Shown here in pieces: positions 12,178-26,028 of a DNA stretch of 64,000 bases. The position numbers were made by a program, and so were the translations under genes. Origin of the DNA: a virus; the IMG/VR virus record IMGVR_UViG_3300048834_000455, positions 1 to 64,000 of that record; one strand, given 5' to 3'. The number at the start of each line of letters is the position of its first letter. Within the stretch, counting starts at the first letter, position 1. The notes beneath the pieces were generated by a model that saw only the letters and a program-made list of their open reading frames with translations, was not told where the DNA came from and searched no databases.

Positions 12178-12408
12178 TTAGGCCACCCTCTTTCGGCTGA
12201 CTTCGAGCAGTGTTTTCGGGGCGGCGTAGCGGGTCTTCACGTTGACGCTGTCGGCGCCGTACCACTGCTGGCGGCCCGCGCCGTCCACGGTCAGCACTAG
12301 GCCCTCTTGCTCGGCGACCACCCAGACGTGGGCGACGGTGCTAGGACCTGACTTGACCGGGCTGAATACGTGGGCGGTGGCTCTTGCGATTACTTGGGGG
12401 TTTCTCAT
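12178..12408 (-). CDS. Small hypothetical protein under operator-controlled promoter
   Basis: 76 aa. AAAGGAG lies 8 bases before the ATG, just after a conserved leader hairpin. Basic, beta-rich (H-V-W-V-V-A-E-Q-E-G-L-V-L-T-V-D). No family recognised. It is the first gene after one of two duplicated promoters. Confidence 0.75.
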   Translation of the reverse strand: MRNPQVIARATAHVFSPVKSGPSTVAHVWVVAEQEGLVLTVDGAGRQQWYGADSVNVKTRYAAPKTLLEVSRKRVA

Positions 12409-12428: not shown

Positions 12429-12446
12429 GGCCGTTTGCGCTCGGCC
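12429..12446 (-). promoter_or_regulatory. Conserved leader hairpin (copy a)
   Basis: In the RNA: 5-bp stem GGCCG/CGGCC closed by the 8-base loop AGCGCAAA, ending 6 bases before AAAGGAG of the gene starting at 12408. The copy at 13848-13865 has the identical loop on a different stem. Confidence 0.75.
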
Positions 12447-12454
12447 TTGATACT

Positions 12455-12483
12455 GTTATATCACCGCGTTAACCCGGTGTCAA
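12455..12483 (-). promoter_or_regulatory. Strong sigma70 promoter with palindromic operator (copy 1)
   Basis: Minus-strand -35 TTGACA (12478-12483), 17-base spacer, -10 TATAAC (12455-12460). The spacer contains the near-perfect palindrome CACCGCGTTAACCCGGTG (12462-12479). A regulator bound there would cover the spacer and block the promoter. Matches the copy at 13873-13901 at all but one base in this core. Confidence 0.85.
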
Positions 12484-12842
12484 GCATATCTGTTTGCGAG
12501 TTTCTCTAGCTCTCGCTCCCACTGCTCCCGCCCGGCGACGCGAGAGGCCGCCTGGAGCCGCTCTTTGAGGCTCGGCGGCACTTTCACGGCCCACGCCACC
12601 CGCGCAACCCCGTCGCCGTTACGCTGCCACTCGCACCGGGTGCAGGTGCAGTCGGTGGGATGGCCGGACCCGGTGAGGCGAGAGATCTTTTCGTCGAGGG
12701 CTGTCAGGCGCTTGGTCAGCTTTTCGCGCTCTTTGCGGGCCAGCCGTGCCTCGGCGCTCTGGTCCGCTTCTGGGTGCTCGGGGATGGCCGCCAGCGCCTG
12801 GGCGGTCTCTCGTCGCTGCTGCTGGGTTTCGCGGAGGGTCAT
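12480..12842 (-). CDS. Hypothetical helical protein with Cys pair
   Basis: 120 aa, ATGA overlap with the upstream gene. Highly charged helices (Q/R/E/K-rich, coiled-coil-like) at both ends flank a central D-C-T-C-T-R-C-E-W knuckle that might hold zinc. Its stop lies at the -35 box of the promoter at 12455-12483. No family recognised. Confidence 0.7.
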   Translation of the reverse strand: MTLRETQQQRRETAQALAAIPEHPEADQSAEARLARKEREKLTKRLTALDEKISRLTGSGHPTDCTCTRCEWQRNGDGVARVAWAVKVPPSLKERLQAASRVAGREQWERELEKLANRYA

Positions 12843-13270
12843 AGCTGCTGCAGGGCCTCTCTGGCGCCGGGCGTCATGTAGTCAACACGGCGCTCTTTGG
12901 CGCTGGCCACAACGACGATCTGCCTGTTGGGCTCGATGTCGCGGCGGTAGATACCGAGCCCGCCGACGAAATCCAGCTCGCTCTGGGTGACGTAGCGGAC
13001 CTGCTGGCGCTCCACCTCGACCATGGCGGCTTCTCGCGCTTCATCGTCTGCTAGTTTGGCCAGGCGGTAGGTCGGCTCCACGCCCATCCTGACTGCCGCC
13101 TCCACGAAAGTCTCGCCGTCGAGTTTGCGGCCTATCCGTTCGACTGCGCGGAATCGGTCTTCGCTGTCGGGGTACTCCTCGAATCTCCAGAGGTCCCAGT
13201 CGTAGCCGCGACTGTCGCCAGGAGTGACGTCGTAGAATGCGTGATTCTCGTTGATTTTGCGTACTGCCAT
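12839..13270 (-). CDS. Hypothetical early protein
   Basis: 143 aa from the ATG at 13270, with AGAAAGAAG after a leader hairpin. Mixed alpha/beta with F-Y-D-V-T-P-G-D-S-R-G-Y-D-W and a C-terminal I-V-V-V-A-S strand. No motif recognised. Longer readings from 13417 would overlap the upstream gene and lack a ribosome site. Confidence 0.75.
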   Translation of the reverse strand: MAVRKINENHAFYDVTPGDSRGYDWDLWRFEEYPDSEDRFRAVERIGRKLDGETFVEAAVRMGVEPTYRLAKLADDEAREAAMVEVERQQVRYVTQSELDFVGGLGIYRRDIEPNRQIVVVASAKERRVDYMTPGAREALQQL

Positions 13271-13287
13271 GATGAGAACTTCTTTCT

Positions 13288-13307
13288 GCGCGGATTGGCC
13301 CCCGCGC
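13288..13307 (-). promoter_or_regulatory. Conserved leader hairpin (copy e, variant loop)
   Basis: RNA stem GCGCGG/CCGCGC with loop GGGCCAAT, ending 2 bases before the AGAAAGAAG ribosome site of the gene starting at 13270. Same size and place as the other leader hairpins. Confidence 0.6.
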
Positions 13308-13316
13308 GGGCTGTGT

Positions 13317-13550
13317 CTAGAACCCCTCGTATTCCTCGAGGGCACATTTGGCGGCCAAGTCGGGCCGGCTCGCCAAGCACTCGGGGCAGACGTCATAGGG
13401 GTGAGGGTCGTTGCCAATGGTGTAGTGGCTCCAGCCAGCCTCGATGGCCGCGCTGTCGGCCTCCGCGTCGTCGGCCTTCGCCAGGTCCCGGCTCTCGGTG
13501 GTGCAACCTGGCGTGTCGCACGCCAGCCAGTGGAGGGAGCGGTCGGACAT
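13317..13550 (-). CDS. Small zinc-binding protein
   Basis: 77 aa from the ATG at 13550, which overlaps the previous stop (TAATG). An N-terminal C-D-T-P-G-C and a later C-P-E-C form a plausible four-cysteine zinc site around a W-S-H-Y core. No specific family. Confidence 0.7.
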   Translation of the reverse strand: MSDRSLHWLACDTPGCTTESRDLAKADDAEADSAAIEAGWSHYTIGNDPHPYDVCPECLASRPDLAAKCALEEYEGF

Positions 13551-13825
13551 TAGACTCGAGCGCAAGCCGCGTCAAAGGCTTCGTTGAGAAGGCGACCAAT
13601 CTGATCTTTGGTTTCATCGTAAGCCTTGCAGGCCTCGTAACTGTCGCCCTCGCTAGGCTCGATCTCGATCTTGGTGTCGAGATAGCGATCGGCCACCTCG
13701 ACTGTGACTTCGGCGCCCTCATAGAAGGTGCCGACGATCTCTTCAGCGGTCTCGGCGTACAGGTCGGCTGGAACTCCGTCTAGGCCCTCGGTGCTGGTGG
13801 TGACGATAATTTTGGTGATGTTCAT
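13550..13825 (-). CDS. Small acidic protein, first gene of an early transcript
   Basis: 91 aa, AAAGGAG 8 bases before the ATG. Strands at the start (I-T-K-I-I-V-T-T-S-T-E-G-L) then an acidic helical body. No motif. First gene behind the promoter-operator at 13873-13901 and leader hairpin 13848-13865. Confidence 0.75.
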   Translation of the reverse strand: MNITKIIVTTSTEGLDGVPADLYAETAEEIVGTFYEGAEVTVEVADRYLDTKIEIEPSEGDSYEACKAYDETKDQIGRLLNEAFDAACARV

Positions 13826-13847
13826 CTTGCGTTTCTCCTTTGCGTTT

Positions 13848-13865
13848 CGGGGTTTGCGCTCCCCG
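13848..13865 (-). promoter_or_regulatory. Conserved leader hairpin (copy b)
   Basis: RNA stem CGGGG/CCCCG with loop AGCGCAAA, 6 bases before AAAGGAG. All five stem pairs differ from or compensate relative to copy a except where shared, while the loop is unchanged. Confidence 0.75.
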
Positions 13866-13872
13866 TGCTATA

Positions 13873-13901
13873 GTTATATCACCGCGTTAACTCGGTGTCA
13901 A
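13873..13901 (-). promoter_or_regulatory. Strong sigma70 promoter with palindromic operator (copy 2)
   Basis: Minus-strand -35 TTGACA (13896-13901), 17-base spacer, -10 TATAAC (13873-13878). Operator palindrome CACCGCGTTAACTCGGTG at 13880-13897. Upstream, 13902-14064 has no gene I can support; it contains short GC-rich inverted repeats only. Confidence 0.85.
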
Positions 13902-14064
13902 CACCTGCGAGAAATAAAAGTGGCCGTCCCGATTTGCGCAAACAAAGGGCGGCCAACAAAGGAGCCGGGATTCACGCCCGGACGGGCTTTCGCTCCGCTC
14001 TCCGGGGAAGCTCGCCCCGAGGAGGGCTCTAGCGTACCACGGCGTGGCGGGGTGGGCAAGCGGG

Positions 14065-14244
14065 CTAGGCCTCCTCGTTGCGCTCGGCGGTCTCCTCAAC
14101 GTAGGCGTCCCAGTCGCGCTCGGTCCAGGAGGAACAGATGGCGCGAACTCTCTGCTCTACGGCCTGGGCCTGCTCTAGATCGCCCTTGGCTTCAAGTCTC
14201 TCGACCTGCCGAGCCAGCTTGTACACGGTATCAAAAGCCGTCAT
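14065..14244 (-). CDS. Small charged helical protein
   Basis: 59 aa, Glu/Arg/Ala-rich and helical throughout (R-Q-V-E-R-L-E-A-K-G-D-L-E-Q-A). GGAGAG lies before the ATG. The last 14 bases of the upstream gene overlap its start. Too short for the usual length cut-off but with good codon bias. Function unknown. Confidence 0.6.
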   Translation of the reverse strand: MTAFDTVYKLARQVERLEAKGDLEQAQAVEQRVRAICSSWTERDWDAYVEETAERNEEA

Positions 14245-14677
14245 TGCTCTCCTCCTTCTGCTCGGCCTCTAGCCTAGCGGTCGCCGCCTCGTAAGGCAAA
14301 TTCTCGCGCAGGCAGTACAGCCCCGCCGCCAATCCCACCACCGCAAGCTCCAGCGTCTCCTGCGCGGTCCCCTCGGCGGTCACCCAGCGGCAGGTCGACC
14401 AGGTGGGGTGGTCGGTCGGGTAGATGCTCAGCGTCGCGTGGTCGTTCGTCTCATGTGCGGCCTTGATGCCGTCGACATCGCTCTCGACGTTCACCTGCTC
14501 GGCGATGTCGCGGAGCTGCCACAGGAAGGCGATGGCGGCCTTCTCCTCCTGCGCGATCTCGGGGTACATGTGGCGTTGCGTCCGGCAGCGGTCCGAGCGC
14601 TCTTGGACGCCGTCACTGGCGAGGTCGAGCAGGGTATCGAGCAGGTCTTTGAGGGTGGGGGCGGGGTCGGTGGTCAT
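14231..14677 (-). CDS. Hypothetical early protein
   Basis: 148 aa. The ATG follows immediately on the stop of the dndB-like gene region in transcript order, with AGGTGAGC upstream. Two helical segments around a W-S-T-C-R-W-V-T-A-E-G-T-A strand; Glu-rich end. No family recognised. Confidence 0.7.
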   Translation of the reverse strand: MTTDPAPTLKDLLDTLLDLASDGVQERSDRCRTQRHMYPEIAQEEKAAIAFLWQLRDIAEQVNVESDVDGIKAAHETNDHATLSIYPTDHPTWSTCRWVTAEGTAQETLELAVVGLAAGLYCLRENLPYEAATARLEAEQKEESNDGF

Positions 14678-15745
14678 CTAGCTCACCTCCAGCCCAAGGA
14701 CACCCTTGAGGTAGTTGGCCGTAGCCGTGACGTGAGCCGAGGTCTTCTGGACCACCCCACCGGTCAGCGCCTTGCCCTCCCAATGCGGGGCCGAGCGTAG
14801 CCAGTTGACGTCCTCGAGAGGCTGGAGTCGCCCCTCCCAGTCGCTGTGCTCCGAGACCAGAGCTTCGCCGGCCACTCCGAGAGCTTGCAGAGCCACGGCG
14901 TGAGCGTGAACGGTGTCTTGCCGAAGCTCGGCGCTCTGGACTTGGCCGAGGCGAGCGCGCGACCAATCGGGGATGCAGTTGCCGACCTCTTCCCAGAAGC
15001 GGTGAGCCAGAGCCGCCTGCTGCTTCGTTGGCGAACCCTTGCGGCCAATCCCGAGCAGAGCCTGCGTGGCCTGGTGGATCGCGCCGATGGTGAACAGCTT
15101 GCGACTGGCCTTGCCAATGCTGGGCTTCTCCATCTCGGTCAGCCCCCGGAAGGTCGGATTCCTGGTGGCTAGATCGCGGGCGAGGTCAGCCATGGCGTCG
15201 CGGTGATCATACAGCACACCGAGACTCTTGGCGGGCTTGGCGCCGTGGAAGTTCAGGTCCGAGAAGAGCTGCTGCGAACGCTTCAGGCCAGCGTCTATGA
15301 ACAGCACCACGGACAGGCTCTCGCTCGCCAACTCGGGCCGCTCCTTGATGGCGCGGATGATGGCCGCCCTTCGGTGCTGGCCGTCGTTGACGAGGATGGT
15401 GGCCGACATTGGCACGTGGAGAGTCCCAATGTTGTGGTTGCCCTCGCTGGCCTCGAACCGGACCTCGGCGGCGATGCTCGCGATGATGGGCGGGAGCACG
15501 TAGTCGTTGGCGTTGTCCACGAGATAGCGAGCAATCCCAGGCACTCGCGAGGGGTTGAGCACTCGTTGCGCCCGGAGCTCGGGGCTCAGCTCTTCCTCGT
15601 CAATCACGAGGATTCGGGGGATTAGCTGGAGCGGGCACATGATCGAGAAGTAGGAGCGACCGGCCTGGATGCCGCGCAGAGCTGCGAACGAGTAGGCCAT
15701 GGTTTCCACGCGGGGCGGGGTGGGTTTGGTTTGAGTCTTAGACAT
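14678..15745 (-). CDS. dndB: DndB-like DGQHR-domain protein
   Basis: 355 aa from the ATG at 15745 (GAAAGGAC upstream). Residues 121-125 are D-G-Q-H-R within I-L-V-N-D-G-Q-H-R-R-A-A-I, the defining motif of the DndB family; S-R-V-P-G-I-A-R-Y-L, F-S-D-L-N and N-P-T-F segments also fit. In hosts DndB is associated with dndCDE (DNA phosphorothioation) and represses or limits modification. No dndA, C, D or E gene is visible in the window, so this is a lone copy. It may alter a host Dnd system or have another DNA-related job. Adjacent genes are short early genes in the same direction. Confidence 0.8.
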   Translation of the reverse strand: MSKTQTKPTPPRVETMAYSFAALRGIQAGRSYFSIMCPLQLIPRILVIDEEELSPELRAQRVLNPSRVPGIARYLVDNANDYVLPPIIASIAAEVRFEASEGNHNIGTLHVPMSATILVNDGQHRRAAIIRAIKERPELASESLSVVLFIDAGLKRSQQLFSDLNFHGAKPAKSLGVLYDHRDAMADLARDLATRNPTFRGLTEMEKPSIGKASRKLFTIGAIHQATQALLGIGRKGSPTKQQAALAHRFWEEVGNCIPDWSRARLGQVQSAELRQDTVHAHAVALQALGVAGEALVSEHSDWEGRLQPLEDVNWLRSAPHWEGKALTGGVVQKTSAHVTATANYLKGVLGLEVS

Positions 15746-15770
15746 GTGGTCCTTTCTATATAGAGGGGGG

Positions 15771-16118
15771 TCAAACTTCGTCTTCGGCCAGCGCCACAGG
15801 GTCCCAGCCAAGGTGATACTCGCCGAACCACTGCCCCACGTGCTCCACCCCATCCACACTCACCGTGAACTCGGTGTCGCCAGGGATCGCGAGGTCAGCG
15901 CAGATGGCCGCGTGAGCCGCCGTGGTGACCGCCTCGAGCTGGTCGGCGTTCAAATCGGCAAGGCGCAATGTGTCGAAGGTGACGGCGGCCTCGGTGGTCT
16001 GTGCGAAGGTTAGCTTCAGCCGGGTGTCGTCGGCCTCGCGGCACCCGCAGTCTCGCGCGTCGGCGAGGCAGTCTGGGCACTGGTGCTTCTTCAGGGGCTC
16101 TTGGTAGTCGCAGCGCAT
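15771..16118 (-). CDS. Zinc-ribbon N-terminus, hypothetical protein
   Basis: 115 aa. Starts with a cysteine cluster (C3, then C-P-D-C-L ... C-G-C) likely to hold zinc, followed by an acidic alpha/beta body with F-T-V-S-V-D-G-V-E-H-V-G-Q-W-F-G-E-Y. The single-base overlap ATG/TGA with the upstream gene indicates coupling. No known function. Confidence 0.7.
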   Translation of the reverse strand: MRCDYQEPLKKHQCPDCLADARDCGCREADDTRLKLTFAQTTEAAVTFDTLRLADLNADQLEAVTTAAHAAICADLAIPGDTEFTVSVDGVEHVGQWFGEYHLGWDPVALAEDEV

Positions 16119-16384
16119 CAGATGTCACCCCAGCGGCTCAGCTCGTCGCCCACCTGTGACAGCTCGAGCCCGCGCAGGGAGAAGGAGCGGCTCACGAGGC
16201 AGCGGTTGCCGTTCTCGTGCTCGCAGTAGAGCCCGCGCCCGTTCGTCGCGGTGCGGTAGGTGGTGCGCGTGGAGACCGGCTCGCGGGTCACGGGGTGGCT
16301 GTAGGTGTGCACCCAGGTCCACTCCCAGCCGTGGGCGCCGTTGGGGCGGAGGTCGGAGATTCCAGTGGCGATGGTGGCGGTCAT
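16118..16384 (-). CDS. Small hypothetical protein
   Basis: 88 aa from the ATG at 16384, with AGAAAGGACC behind a leader hairpin. Contains W-E-W-T-W-V-H-T-Y-S-H and C-E-H-E-N-G-N-R-C. Beta-rich; the His/Cys spacing might bind metal. No family recognised. Confidence 0.65.
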   Translation of the reverse strand: MTATIATGISDLRPNGAHGWEWTWVHTYSHPVTREPVSTRTTYRTATNGRGLYCEHENGNRCLVSRSFSLRGLELSQVGDELSRWGDI

Positions 16385-16400
16385 TTGCAGGGTCCTTTCT

Positions 16401-16420
16401 GCCCGGTTTGGGCGCCGGGC
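16401..16420 (-). promoter_or_regulatory. Conserved leader hairpin (copy c)
   Basis: RNA stem GCCCGG/CCGGGC with loop CGCCCAAA, ending 2 bases before AAAGGACC of the gene starting at 16384. Confidence 0.7.
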
Positions 16421-16433
16421 CGCCGTAGTGAGG

Positions 16434-16694
16434 TTAAGCGCCGAACCAAGTCTTGCGCCAGGCTGCATTGGCGGCTTCCTGTGCGCGGTCGGCCTGGTGC
16501 TCGGCGAGGATGGCGCGAGCCTCGTCCTCGGTGATGCCGAAGCGCTTGGCGCGGCTGGCGACCAGGGTGGGGCAAAGGGCGAGCTTGGCCGCCTCGAAGG
16601 CCTCGGAGTAGCTGAAGGCCGGGGCGGAAGCGACTTCGACGAAGCCGCCGTTCCCCAAGGTGTAGAAGCGTTCGGTGGTGGCGGTGGGGTTCAT
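16434..16694 (-). CDS. Small helical protein
   Basis: 86 aa, AAGGAG before the ATG. A short strand region (F-Y-T-L-G-N-G-G-F-V-E-V) is followed by helices including F-G-I-T-E-D-E-A-R-A-I-L-A-E-H-Q. No recognised domain. Confidence 0.7.
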   Translation of the reverse strand: MNPTATTERFYTLGNGGFVEVASAPAFSYSEAFEAAKLALCPTLVASRAKRFGITEDEARAILAEHQADRAQEAANAAWRKTWFGA

Positions 16695-16709
16695 AGCGGG
16701 CTCCTTCTT

Positions 16710-16728
16710 GCCGGATTTGGGCTCCGGC
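16710..16728 (-). promoter_or_regulatory. Conserved leader hairpin (copy d)
   Basis: RNA stem GCCGGA/TCCGGC with loop GCCCAAA, ending one base before AGAAGGAG of the gene starting at 16694. Confidence 0.7.
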
Positions 16729-16741
16729 TGGCCCTTAAAAT

Positions 16742-17040: not shown

Positions 17041-17056
17041 AAGCGGCGAACCGCTT
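17041..17056 (-). promoter_or_regulatory. UUCG-tetraloop leader hairpin
   Basis: RNA stem AAGCGG/CCGCTT closed by UUCG, a very stable tetraloop, about 10 bases before the AAGGAGG of the gene starting at 17017. It takes the place that the CAAA-loop hairpins hold at other leaders. From here to 17234 no gene is seen. Confidence 0.6.
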
Positions 17057-17234
17057 CTCTATGCTCGTCCTCGTAGGCGTCGAGCCTGCCCAGCGTTGCT
17101 AGCGCCTTGCGTGGCCCTTTGAAGCGGTTGCCCTCCGCTGTTCCCCTCGCGACTTACGGGGGAGCCCGTCCGGGCTAGCCCCTCCCGCGCGAACGGGGAG
17201 TCCCCGCCACCCGGCGGGTATGTTCTGCGAAACT

Positions 17235-17390
17235 TTAGAGGCTAGTGTGGAGGCCGGTGGCAGAGGTGAAGACTTCGCGGAGACTCTCTGCGTAAATGCC
17301 GGTGCTCTCGTTCACGACCCGGGCGTTGGCTCCGCGCATCGCGTAGAAGGCGACATCGTAGAGGTCGGCCGGCGTCAGGGTGATGACCAC
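17235..17390 (-). CDS. Short coding remnant or small gene
   Basis: 51 aa from GTG at 17390 to TAA at 17235-17237. Codon bias is good and the sequence (L-T-P-A-D-L-Y-D-V-A-F-Y-A-M-R-G) looks like real protein, but the frame is open a little further upstream with no ATG before a stop, so it could be the end of a broken gene. Confidence 0.35.
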   Translation of the reverse strand: MVITLTPADLYDVAFYAMRGANARVVNESTGIYAESLREVFTSATGLHTSL

Positions 17391-20981: not shown

Positions 20982-22034
20982 CTATGGTTCTTCCTCTCGG
21001 TCGAGCACCTTGACCGCCTCGTGCAGATGGTCGGGAGAGAGCTTCGCGTACCTCTCCGTGATAGTGATCGAGCGGTGTCCCGCGAGAAGCTGGATGGTCC
21101 GCAGAGGTGTCCCTGCCATTGCCAACCGGCTGCAGTAGGTATGTCGCAGGTCGTGCCATCGCAGGTCGCGGATTCCGGCCTTCGCTAGCGCGGGCTTGAA
21201 GTGCTTTCGGTAGAAGTTGACGCCTGACCACGCCGTCCCCGTCAAAGGGTGGGGGAACAGCCACTCTGACCCCAGCGCCTCGGCGAGCTCCAATTGCTTG
21301 ATGATGAGCCTCCGCAGGTCGGCCCCCATCGGAACCTCGCGAGGGTAGCCGCTCTTCGTCAGGGGTAACCGGAGAACATTGGCGTCCAGGAGTACCTGGT
21401 TCGTCTTCGCCAGGAACTGCTCGGACTGTCTCATGCCCGATAGGAAGGCGATCTGCACGAAGCGCCACTTCCACGGCTCCATGTGTTCACGTAACCGTGC
21501 CTCCTCGCTGTCGCTAAGCCAACGTAAGCGGCCGTGGTCCTCCTTGAGCGCCTTGTATCCGCGGAGAGGGTTGGCCGGCAAGATGCGGTCTCTGACTGCC
21601 AAATTCAGCAGCGCATGGAGTCGCCTGGTCACGCGATTGACGCTGGCCGGTTGAAGCCCTCGCGCCAGCTCCTTCTGTTGCCACAGGCTCACCATCATCG
21701 GCGAAATCTTGGCAATCTTCGGATCGTTGAGGTCTCGGACCAGCCGGTTCTCTATGTGCTCGTGGTAGCGGTGTTGACGGTTGCGGGCCTGGTCGTCAGC
21801 GCGGTATCGCTTGGCCAGCTCGGAGAGGCGAACCGGCGTCTGCATCATGTCCGCTTGGATCTGATCCATCATCTCGAGGATCTTCTGTGCGGCCTTCTTG
21901 CCGTCTTTGCCGGGTCCACACTTGCGGCGGAATCGACGGCCGGTGTCGAGCTTCTTGTCTACCCAGTAATCGCCCGTCGTTGGGTCTTGTCGAATGTATT
22001 GCAGCTTCGTGCTAACTAGTGTGGGAATAGCCAT
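20982..22034 (-). CDS. int: Tyrosine recombinase / phage integrase
   Basis: 350 aa from the ATG at 22034, which has AAAGGAG upstream; a longer frame to 22178 is not needed. Arm-binding start, SAM-like core-binding domain to about residue 160, then the catalytic domain with R202 (S-G-M-R-Q-S-E), K227, H294/R297 (W-H-D-L-R-H-T), H320 (L-L-A-G-H) and the nucleophile Y329. All catalytic residues are present. The stop lies 2 bases from the right arm repeats of the att site, so it should act on that site at a tRNA-Thr gene. Confidence 0.95.
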   Translation of the reverse strand: MAIPTLVSTKLQYIRQDPTTGDYWVDKKLDTGRRFRRKCGPGKDGKKAAQKILEMMDQIQADMMQTPVRLSELAKRYRADDQARNRQHRYHEHIENRLVRDLNDPKIAKISPMMVSLWQQKELARGLQPASVNRVTRRLHALLNLAVRDRILPANPLRGYKALKEDHGRLRWLSDSEEARLREHMEPWKWRFVQIAFLSGMRQSEQFLAKTNQVLLDANVLRLPLTKSGYPREVPMGADLRRLIIKQLELAEALGSEWLFPHPLTGTAWSGVNFYRKHFKPALAKAGIRDLRWHDLRHTYCSRLAMAGTPLRTIQLLAGHRSITITERYAKLSPDHLHEAVKVLDREEEP

Positions 22035-22181
22035 GCTTCTCCTTTGGGAGGCGACCCGGCCGAGAGCGCGAAGAACAGGTTCTTCAGGCGCAGGTCTCGG
22101 GCTATCGGCTCGGGGCCTCGTTTTCTTCTGTGCCCTCATCATAAGGGCAGTTCTCAAATCGCGGGACGCGGTCGCCAAGAA

Positions 22182-25480: not shown

Positions 25481-25960
25481 TCAACCTTTCCCCCCCTTTT
25501 TCTTGTTGTTGCCACCGTCGCCGCGCTTCTTCTTGTCGTTCCGCGCGGCTAACTCGGCCTGCTCGGGAACCGCGACACCCATCTGAAGTGACTCCATCAT
25601 CAGCGCAAGGTTCTCATCAACGGCGCCGTCGGCGAACTTAGCCACCATCTCGTCGGTCCAAGCGAGTTGGTGGAGCGCTTTCTTGACTGCTTTGGCTTGC
25701 TGAATCTCGCCGTTTACGATCTGCATCGCGAGCTCAGGAGATATCGGCACAGGATCGTTCTCGTCTTCTCCCAGCAGCCAAGAGATTTTGACCCCGAGCT
25801 GCGCAGCCAACAGGGGCATCTGATCCCAGCTTGGCTTGTACTCCCCGTTGGTCCATCCGCCCACATTGCTGGCCCGCACGTCCATGCGCTTAGCCAGTTC
25901 ATACTTGCTTATCCCAAGCGCATTCCGCGCCATCTCTAGCCTTTCGGCAAATCGATCCAT
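25481..25960 (-). CDS. CI-like XRE repressor
   Basis: 159 aa from the ATG at 25960 (an in-frame ATG at 26008 would read through the promoter region). Residues 5-60 form an XRE helix-turn-helix (L-G-I-S-K-Y-E-L-A-K-R-M-D-V-R-A-S-N-V-G-G-W). The remainder is helical with a Lys/Gly-rich tail and no Ser-Lys autoprotease motif, so release from repression would need the ImmA-type protease. Divergent from the Cro-like gene across a 80-base operator region. Confidence 0.85.
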   Translation of the reverse strand: MDRFAERLEMARNALGISKYELAKRMDVRASNVGGWTNGEYKPSWDQMPLLAAQLGVKISWLLGEDENDPVPISPELAMQIVNGEIQQAKAVKKALHQLAWTDEMVAKFADGAVDENLALMMESLQMGVAVPEQAELAARNDKKKRGDGGNNKKKGGKG

Positions 25961-25983
25961 ATCGGCGATCCTAATGCAGAAGT

Positions 25984-26028
25984 TCTGTATTGACAACGAC
26001 CGGTTCATCTGTCATAAATGAATACAGA
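25984..26028. promoter_or_regulatory. Early rightward promoter with operator half-sites
   Basis: TTGACA (25990-25995), 17-base spacer, CATAAA (26013-26018) gives a rightward promoter for the Cro-like gene. Inverted half-sites TCTGTAT (25984-25990) and ATACAGA (26022-26028) flank it, so repressor binding would occlude the promoter. Confidence 0.65.

Follow-up and report, generated by a model that had tools for sequence, protein, structure and literature searches.

Predicted leader pseudoknots flush with ribosome sites in a probably temperate tailed phage, and their counterparts in unrelated phages

Stable structures, strong extended Shine-Dalgarno sequences, or both, protect mRNA when they lie 5′ of a gene, as described for the 5′ stem-loops of ompA and of bla fusions and for the Bacillus SP82 and STAB-SD leaders (PMC3997798, PMC7509114). 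Here we describe five leader hairpins on the minus strand of a 64,000-base stretch of viral DNA (the window, bases 1–64,000 of the 89,905-base IMG/VR record IMGVR_UViG_3300048834_000455). They are two different things: three are predicted intercistronic pseudoknots (B1, B2 and B3) and two are plain promoter-proximal hairpins (A1 and A2). The two A hairpins would be the best fit to the known 5′ stabilisers, which are described as hairpins or polypurine sites, whereas the B elements are pseudoknots between genes.

The B elements share features with several other systems. The operators of phage T4 genes 43 and 32 are likewise phage leader structures upstream of ribosome sites, with a pseudoknot in that of gene 32 (PMC3014915), but each serves one gene and is autoregulated by its product, whereas here many unrelated genes are served and the knot is flush with the Shine-Dalgarno sequence. 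The preQ1 class I riboswitch is also a very small H-type pseudoknot with an A-rich loop near the Shine-Dalgarno sequence (PMC11625349); its knot includes part of that sequence and it has a conserved ligand core, neither of which is seen in the B elements. The start-associated sequences (SAS) and extended start-associated sequences (ESAS) of cluster K and EF actinophages resemble the B elements in having several copies per genome at the ribosome sites of small genes, and the EF consensus GGGAAAGGACCCC resembles the ribosome site at 16401 (PMC7302621). Neither the 13-bp sequence GGGATAGGAGCCC nor GGGAAAGGACCCC is present at the window sites, which read CAGAAAGGACCC, AAGAAGGAGCCC and CAGAAAGAAGTT and show partial resemblance only; base pairing in the cluster K ESAS repeats was judged unsupported by its authors (PMC3203893), whereas pairing is the conserved feature of the B elements. 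Exonuclease-resistant RNAs (xrRNAs) are compact knotted folds able to stop 5′-to-3′ exonucleases including RNase J1 (PMC5760640), and the B elements may be likened to them by fold, although xrRNAs are larger ring folds and occur in RNA viruses. The STAXI motif consists, as do the B elements, of repeated pseudoknots in bacterial and phage-related DNA, but its copies stand in tandem, two or three at a time, near genes for DNA handling, and their loops are often UUCG (PMC2864571); the B elements have no Rfam match. We rate the B elements as a previously undescribed variant within the known class of cis-acting leader pseudoknots.

Five leader hairpins of two kinds

The 89,905 bp contain five hairpins with a perfect stem of at least 5 bp and a loop of 7–8 nucleotides (nt) ending in GSSCAAW. 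All are on the minus strand, each immediately ahead of a start codon, within one cluster at 12.4–16.7 kb; in 30 dinucleotide shuffles of the record such hairpins averaged 0.13 and never exceeded 1. These are the five hairpins located by an earlier, sequence-only reading of the window, at the coordinates that it gave, and all of their stems are perfectly Watson-Crick paired. The loop consensus is nGSSCAAW; the loop heptamer by itself is not enriched (76 found, 70 expected). When four of the copies are compared, compensatory changes appear at four of the five positions in the stem, and a covariance model built from four copies places the held-out fifth (16710) at the top of the non-members, but with an E-value of only 0.27. 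The fold energies of the whole leaders are ordinary (z from −0.6 to −1.5), so that energy alone would have missed the structure.

Three copies, at 13288, 16401 and 16710, are intercistronic, and no clear promoter precedes them. In all three the first four loop bases are complementary to the four bases just upstream of the stem (GCCC/GGGC at 13288, GGCG/CGCC at 16401 and GGGC/GCCC at 16710), for which the joint chance is about 1.3e-6 when the upstream sequence is shuffled. Each copy thus has two complementary helices, S1 of 4 bp and S2 of 6 bp, in H-type order, and it is highly probable from these pairings that the three leaders form compact H-type pseudoknots. B1 together with its Shine-Dalgarno sequence spans 16393–16424: S1 pairs GGCG (16424–16421) with CGCC (16414–16411), S2 pairs GCCCGG (16420–16415) with CCGGGC (16406–16401), L3 is CAAA (16410–16407), and the Shine-Dalgarno sequence AGAAAGGA (16400–16393) is followed by an ATG at 16384. 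B2 (16701–16734) has GGGC (16734–16731) with GCCC (16722–16719) as S1, CA as L1, GCCGGA (16728–16723) with TCCGGC (16715–16710) as S2 and AAA as L3, before the Shine-Dalgarno sequence AGAAGGAG (16708–16701) and an ATG at 16694. In B3 (13279–13311), S1 is GCCC (13311–13308) with GGGC (13301–13298), S2 is GCGCGG (13307–13302) with CCGCGC (13293–13288) and L3 is CAAT (13297–13294); the Shine-Dalgarno-like sequence AGAAAGAAG (13287–13279) precedes an ATG at 13270. All three rest on the hairpin count, the S1 pairing and matches to held-out covariance models described below (R2 and R3 for B1 and B3, R3 for B2).

The layout of the family, including the relatives described below, is 5′-S1 (4 bp)-L1 (0–2 nt)-S2 (5–7 bp)-S1′-L3-S2′-AGAAAGGA-start, in which L3 is usually 3–4 nt and mostly A, and the knot ends 0–1 nt before AGAAAGGA or a similar extended Shine-Dalgarno sequence, followed by the start codon. 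The stop codon of the upstream open frame lies 0–22 nt, mostly 5–13 nt, before the start of the element, which fills the gap from that stop codon to the Shine-Dalgarno sequence of the next gene. In all tabulated copies the Shine-Dalgarno sequence abuts the knot 3′ of S2, never lies inside it and is not sequestered, which makes a translation switch of the kind that hides the ribosome site unlikely.

The sequence-only reading had treated the hairpins as one family with a fixed loop and changing stems, 1–6 bases before the Shine-Dalgarno sequence, with a UUCG-capped hairpin in the same place at 17041–17056. The stems are indeed compensated; the loop is constant only in part, because the first four loop bases of the three intercistronic copies change together with the upstream sequence. 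The distance is 6 nt for the two promoter-proximal copies and 0–1 nt for the intercistronic ones, and the UUCG hairpin ends about 9 nt before its Shine-Dalgarno sequence and is unrelated. In place of a single family there are three H-type pseudoknots, two simple 5′-terminal hairpins and a separate UUCG hairpin. A further hairpin at 17123–17139 (15.4 bits, loop AGGGCAA) was considered as a member and rejected: no start site follows it, and inspection by eye shows no S1. Together with the UUCG hairpin it was noted alongside a GC-rich stretch of about 200 nt (17060–17260, minus strand) that has many possible stems, no clear gene and a fold energy z of −0.62.

Relatives in other phages

No close relative of the whole phage was found by megablast and tblastn against phages, or by IMG/VR scans with its DndB, terminase, RecA-like and helicase proteins and its promoter palindrome; covariation was therefore drawn from the motif, not from orthologous leaders. 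IMG/VR was scanned with the pattern CCGG-N(6-10)-CCGGGCAGAAAGGA, in which part of S2 and the Shine-Dalgarno sequence are fixed from the 16401 copy and the upstream bases and loop are free. Thirty-eight contigs matched, mostly right before a start codon. The loop pairs with the upstream bases over at least 4 bp in 12 of the 36 distinct rows, versus 4.7 when the upstream parts are swapped (maximum 11 in 2000 trials), a strict control since GCCG/CGGC is common to many rows. Among 64 Shine-Dalgarno-adjacent hairpins from viral loci, 24 have an S1 of at least 4 bp, against none with a reversed decoy and two with a same-sequence decoy; a plain-complement decoy (15) is invalid, because the complement of GCCG is its reverse complement.

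Twenty members are tabulated, with 10 pairs, every one of them Watson-Crick. They carry nine different S1 sequences (GCCG, CCCG, ACCG, TCCC, CGGC, AGGC, GGCG, GGGC and GCCC) and nine different S2 sequences (GCCCGG, GCGGGG, GCGGCG, CCCGCA, GGGCGG, GCCGGG, GCGCGG, GCCGGA and a 7-bp form). In an alignment of 11 sequences (A4) all cells pair, one S1 position is occupied by GC, AU, CG and UA, and the covariation score is reached by none of 500 shuffles. A BLAST search with the 33-nt consensus matched Dulem virus 34, from lemur faeces, in which S2 is changed but still pairs. It also matched two Microviridae from pig faeces, in one of which the Shine-Dalgarno sequence beside the knot is degraded and another follows. 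One record (G014) has four or five copies within one run of small genes. Judged by sequence, the element is common to unrelated phages, both tailed phages and the single-stranded DNA Microviridae.

Covariance models from these other phages recover the window leaders, within the limits of rough E-values. R2, built from A4 without any window sequence, has its top two matches in the 64-kb window at 13280–13311 (E 8.9e-8) and 16393–16423 (5e-7), with the third at 0.24, and across 675 kb of unrelated loci it has no match with an E-value under 0.45; it misses the 16710 copy, whose loop geometry differs from the modelled one. R3, built from three leaders of this second geometry in other phages, finds exactly three copies, at 13288 (E 5.3e-6), 16401 (8e-6) and 16710 (1.1e-5), with the next at 0.32. 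Because the scan was seeded with the S2 and Shine-Dalgarno sequence of the 16401 copy, recovery of that copy is only partly independent; those at 13288 and 16710 have other S2 sequences. As for R1 matches in other records, one in G003 is inside a gene and those in G001 led to the pseudoknot element. The sequence-only reading had proposed a covariance search and a selected RNA structure; the further copies in other phages, and the recovery of the window leaders by models made from them, support selection on the structure.

The 24 downstream proteins have no mutual similarity at E 0.01, which argues that the element serves expression generally, not one gene. Flanking DNA matches between loci are almost all limited to the motif, the exceptions being a 173-bp match (L180 and L211), slightly longer matches of L255, and, in the methyltransferase gene, 187 bp that Dulem virus 34 has in common with the window. 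Since the downstream proteins are unrelated and the flank matches are confined to the motif, the module recurs apart from the genes that it serves, by horizontal movement or repeated origin.

Searches beyond these phages were negative. Bacterial genomes gave no match to the strict pattern (0 of 398) or to R2 (0 of 148, a weak result with no positive control and 48 candidates scored per genome), and plasmid matches were set aside as they look like chance, many being inside genes. None of the 4227 models of Rfam 15 matches the window leaders or the pseudoknots of the relatives at gathering or relaxed thresholds, and the open-access literature searched, a coverage that omits most subscription journals, has no description of the pseudoknot element. 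The only Rfam matches in the loci of relatives are a tRNA and, at another leader, a Twister-P5 ribozyme (RF02684, 53 bits; L256 1538–1593, the same as L182 3337–3392) directly before a Shine-Dalgarno sequence, the last hairpin of which is GCCCGG-TCACAAGT-CCGGGC. Related ribozymes may also be present in other leaders, those with CAAG loops (L147 288, L181 and L206). Three contigs (L178 7308, L185 and L210) carry loops of a third class, GGC(A/T)TTGTA, ahead of AGAAAGGA; GCC upstream could pair with this loop over 3 bp, and the class is perhaps a variant of the pseudoknot element.

Promoter-proximal hairpins and neighbouring genes

A1 (12429–12446, minus strand) is GGCCG AGCGCAAA CGGCC, with the Shine-Dalgarno sequence AAAGGAG 6 nt downstream and an ATG at 12408; A2 (13848–13865, minus strand) is CGGGG AGCGCAAA CCCCG with an ATG at 13825. 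Three of the five stem positions differ between the two, every change being compensated; their loops are identical, and neither has an upstream S1 partner. Each follows a strong TTGACA-17-TATAAC promoter on the minus strand, at 12455–12483 for A1 and 13873–13901 for A2. The two promoters are nearly identical, and both promoter spacers carry a near-perfect 18-bp palindrome, CACCGnGTTAACGCGGTG, as CACCGGGTTAACGCGGTG (12462–12479) and CACCGAGTTAACGCGGTG (13880–13897). These are the sole sites in the 89.9-kb record at up to two mismatches, and no such promoter with a spacer palindrome is expected by chance. A phage repressor probably uses the palindrome as its operator; there is a CI-like helix-turn-helix gene at 25481–26008. 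With normal promoter-to-start spacing, the predicted transcript starts fall 0–2 nt (A1) and 0–1 nt (A2) before the hairpins, so that A1 and A2 would be 5′-terminal hairpins; they are probably 5′ mRNA stabilisers. A pattern for type A leaders gave 37 matches in IMG/VR, none with the same hairpin and promoter; type A is private to this phage.

Upstream of the A2 promoter is a terminator-like hairpin, GGCCGCCC...GGGACGGCC (13928–13967, minus strand). In its loop, TTTGCGCAAA, the A-type loop sequence GCGCAAA occurs together with its complement. Kissing between the loop AGCGCAAA and TTTGCGC in the terminator loop near 13935 was set aside, as TTTGCGC is common (29 sites). For the gene behind A2 (13550–13825, minus strand), a weak DinI-like match that falls short of the cut-off (E 0.006) perhaps points to an SOS-related function.

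The genes behind the pseudoknots, all on the minus strand, encode proteins of 88 (B1; 16118–16384), 86 (B2; 16434–16694) and 143 (B3; 12839–13270) amino acids, of no known family. Within the leader cluster, 14678–15745 (minus strand) encodes a full-length DndB/DGQHR protein (Pfam PF14072, E 1.7e-120) that is nearest to actinobacterial proteins; no dnd modification gene was recognised among the genes scanned. The record also has genes for a large terminase, portal, tape measure, integrase, two primase/helicases and a single-stranded DNA-binding protein, among others, from which the virus is a tailed, probably temperate phage. The best matches of single proteins are in phages and in bacteria from different phyla: bacterial relatives of the integrase (20982–22178, minus strand) are mostly Myxococcota, and the RecA-like protein is nearest to that of Myxococcus phage Mx8.

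Possible functions

The most likely reading of the intercistronic knots, which we hold tentatively and with their function wholly inferred, is that they act as translation-initiation insulators and decay barriers. A rigid knot flush with the ribosome site would keep the extended Shine-Dalgarno sequence single-stranded and apart from upstream RNA, and an open, isolated ribosome site would let each small gene be initiated independently. Cleavage of the transcript upstream would leave the knot at the resulting 5′ end, where together with a bound ribosome it would stop a 5′-to-3′ exonuclease of the RNase J type, whose presence in the host is a presumed part of the decay barrier. At primary 5′ ends, where no bases remain for S1, the A1 and A2 hairpins could do the stabilising part. 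The sequence AGAAAGGA matches a 16S rRNA whose 3′ end is CCUUUCU, an ending common in Bacillota and Actinomycetota, groups with RNase J. In B. subtilis, downstream RNA is protected by 5′ hairpins and ribosome sites (PMC3997798). Phage SP82 mRNA is shorter-lived when its ribosome site is mutated (PMC7509114), and a folded RNA from a virus is able to halt bacterial RNase J1 (PMC5760640).

Some observations count against this proposal. A stem-loop too near the Shine-Dalgarno sequence lowered the stability of one B. subtilis mRNA (PMC7509114). RNAfold, which does not model pseudoknots, gives another best fold for the 16401 copy with longer flanks, in which GGCGG pairs with a start-proximal CCGCC. 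The seeding from 16401 also means that S2 and the Shine-Dalgarno sequence are alike in many of the relatives by selection of the scan.

Translational coupling would have the ribosome that ends the upstream gene reach S1 and open the knot, so that the next gene depends on upstream translation and the protein ratio is set. The stop codon, mostly 5–13 nt before S1, is within reach of a terminating ribosome, but with the Shine-Dalgarno sequence outside the structure there is no evident gain from opening it, and S2 alone is stable; we consider coupling unlikely. Similarly improbable is a translational operator, in which a phage or host RNA-binding protein would recognise the knot with its A-rich L3 and repress or activate the small genes together. 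Several copies per genome (three in the window, four or five in G014) would suit an operator, and in T4 an 18-nt hairpin whose loop bases are conserved, placed upstream of the ribosome site, is the operator of gene 43 (PMC3014915). However, the occurrence of the element in unrelated tailed phages and Microviridae leaves no common regulator to point to, both helices vary freely so that little sequence is left to recognise, and no candidate protein was found.

A small-molecule riboswitch of the preQ1 or S-adenosylmethionine pseudoknot type is very improbable. The H-type fold and the A-rich L3 beside the Shine-Dalgarno sequence do recall preQ1 class I (PMC11625349), but a preQ1-like switch is argued against by the Shine-Dalgarno sequence never being part of the knot; no Rfam riboswitch matches even at relaxed thresholds, there is no conserved unpaired core beyond L3, and the downstream genes are unrelated and have no metabolic annotation. 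That the elements are simple hairpins, with upstream complementarity arising by chance in GC-rich DNA, deserves hardly any weight: the arms are GC-rich, only three of the five window copies have an upstream partner and many scan hairpins lack S1, but the joint chance for the window copies, the excess of S1 over the reversed decoy and the four pair types at one S1 position, all pairing, speak against it.

The insulator and decay-barrier reading could extend to a broader and rather doubtful proposal: an undescribed, widespread RNA module of about 33 nt, combining pseudoknot and ribosome site and moving between unrelated double-stranded and single-stranded DNA phages, would be a bacterial counterpart of the viral exonuclease-resistant RNAs and give each cistron of an operon its own protected, open start.

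The gaps between small phage genes of no known function are usually treated as empty. A compact covarying knot at the ribosome site, present several times per genome in otherwise dissimilar phages, would make up a new family of regulatory RNAs. Such a knot could serve to locate the true starts of small phage genes, and it provides a compact, testable component with which to separate the genes of synthetic operons. It also raises the question of whether phages, like some RNA viruses, use folded RNA against 5′-to-3′ decay.

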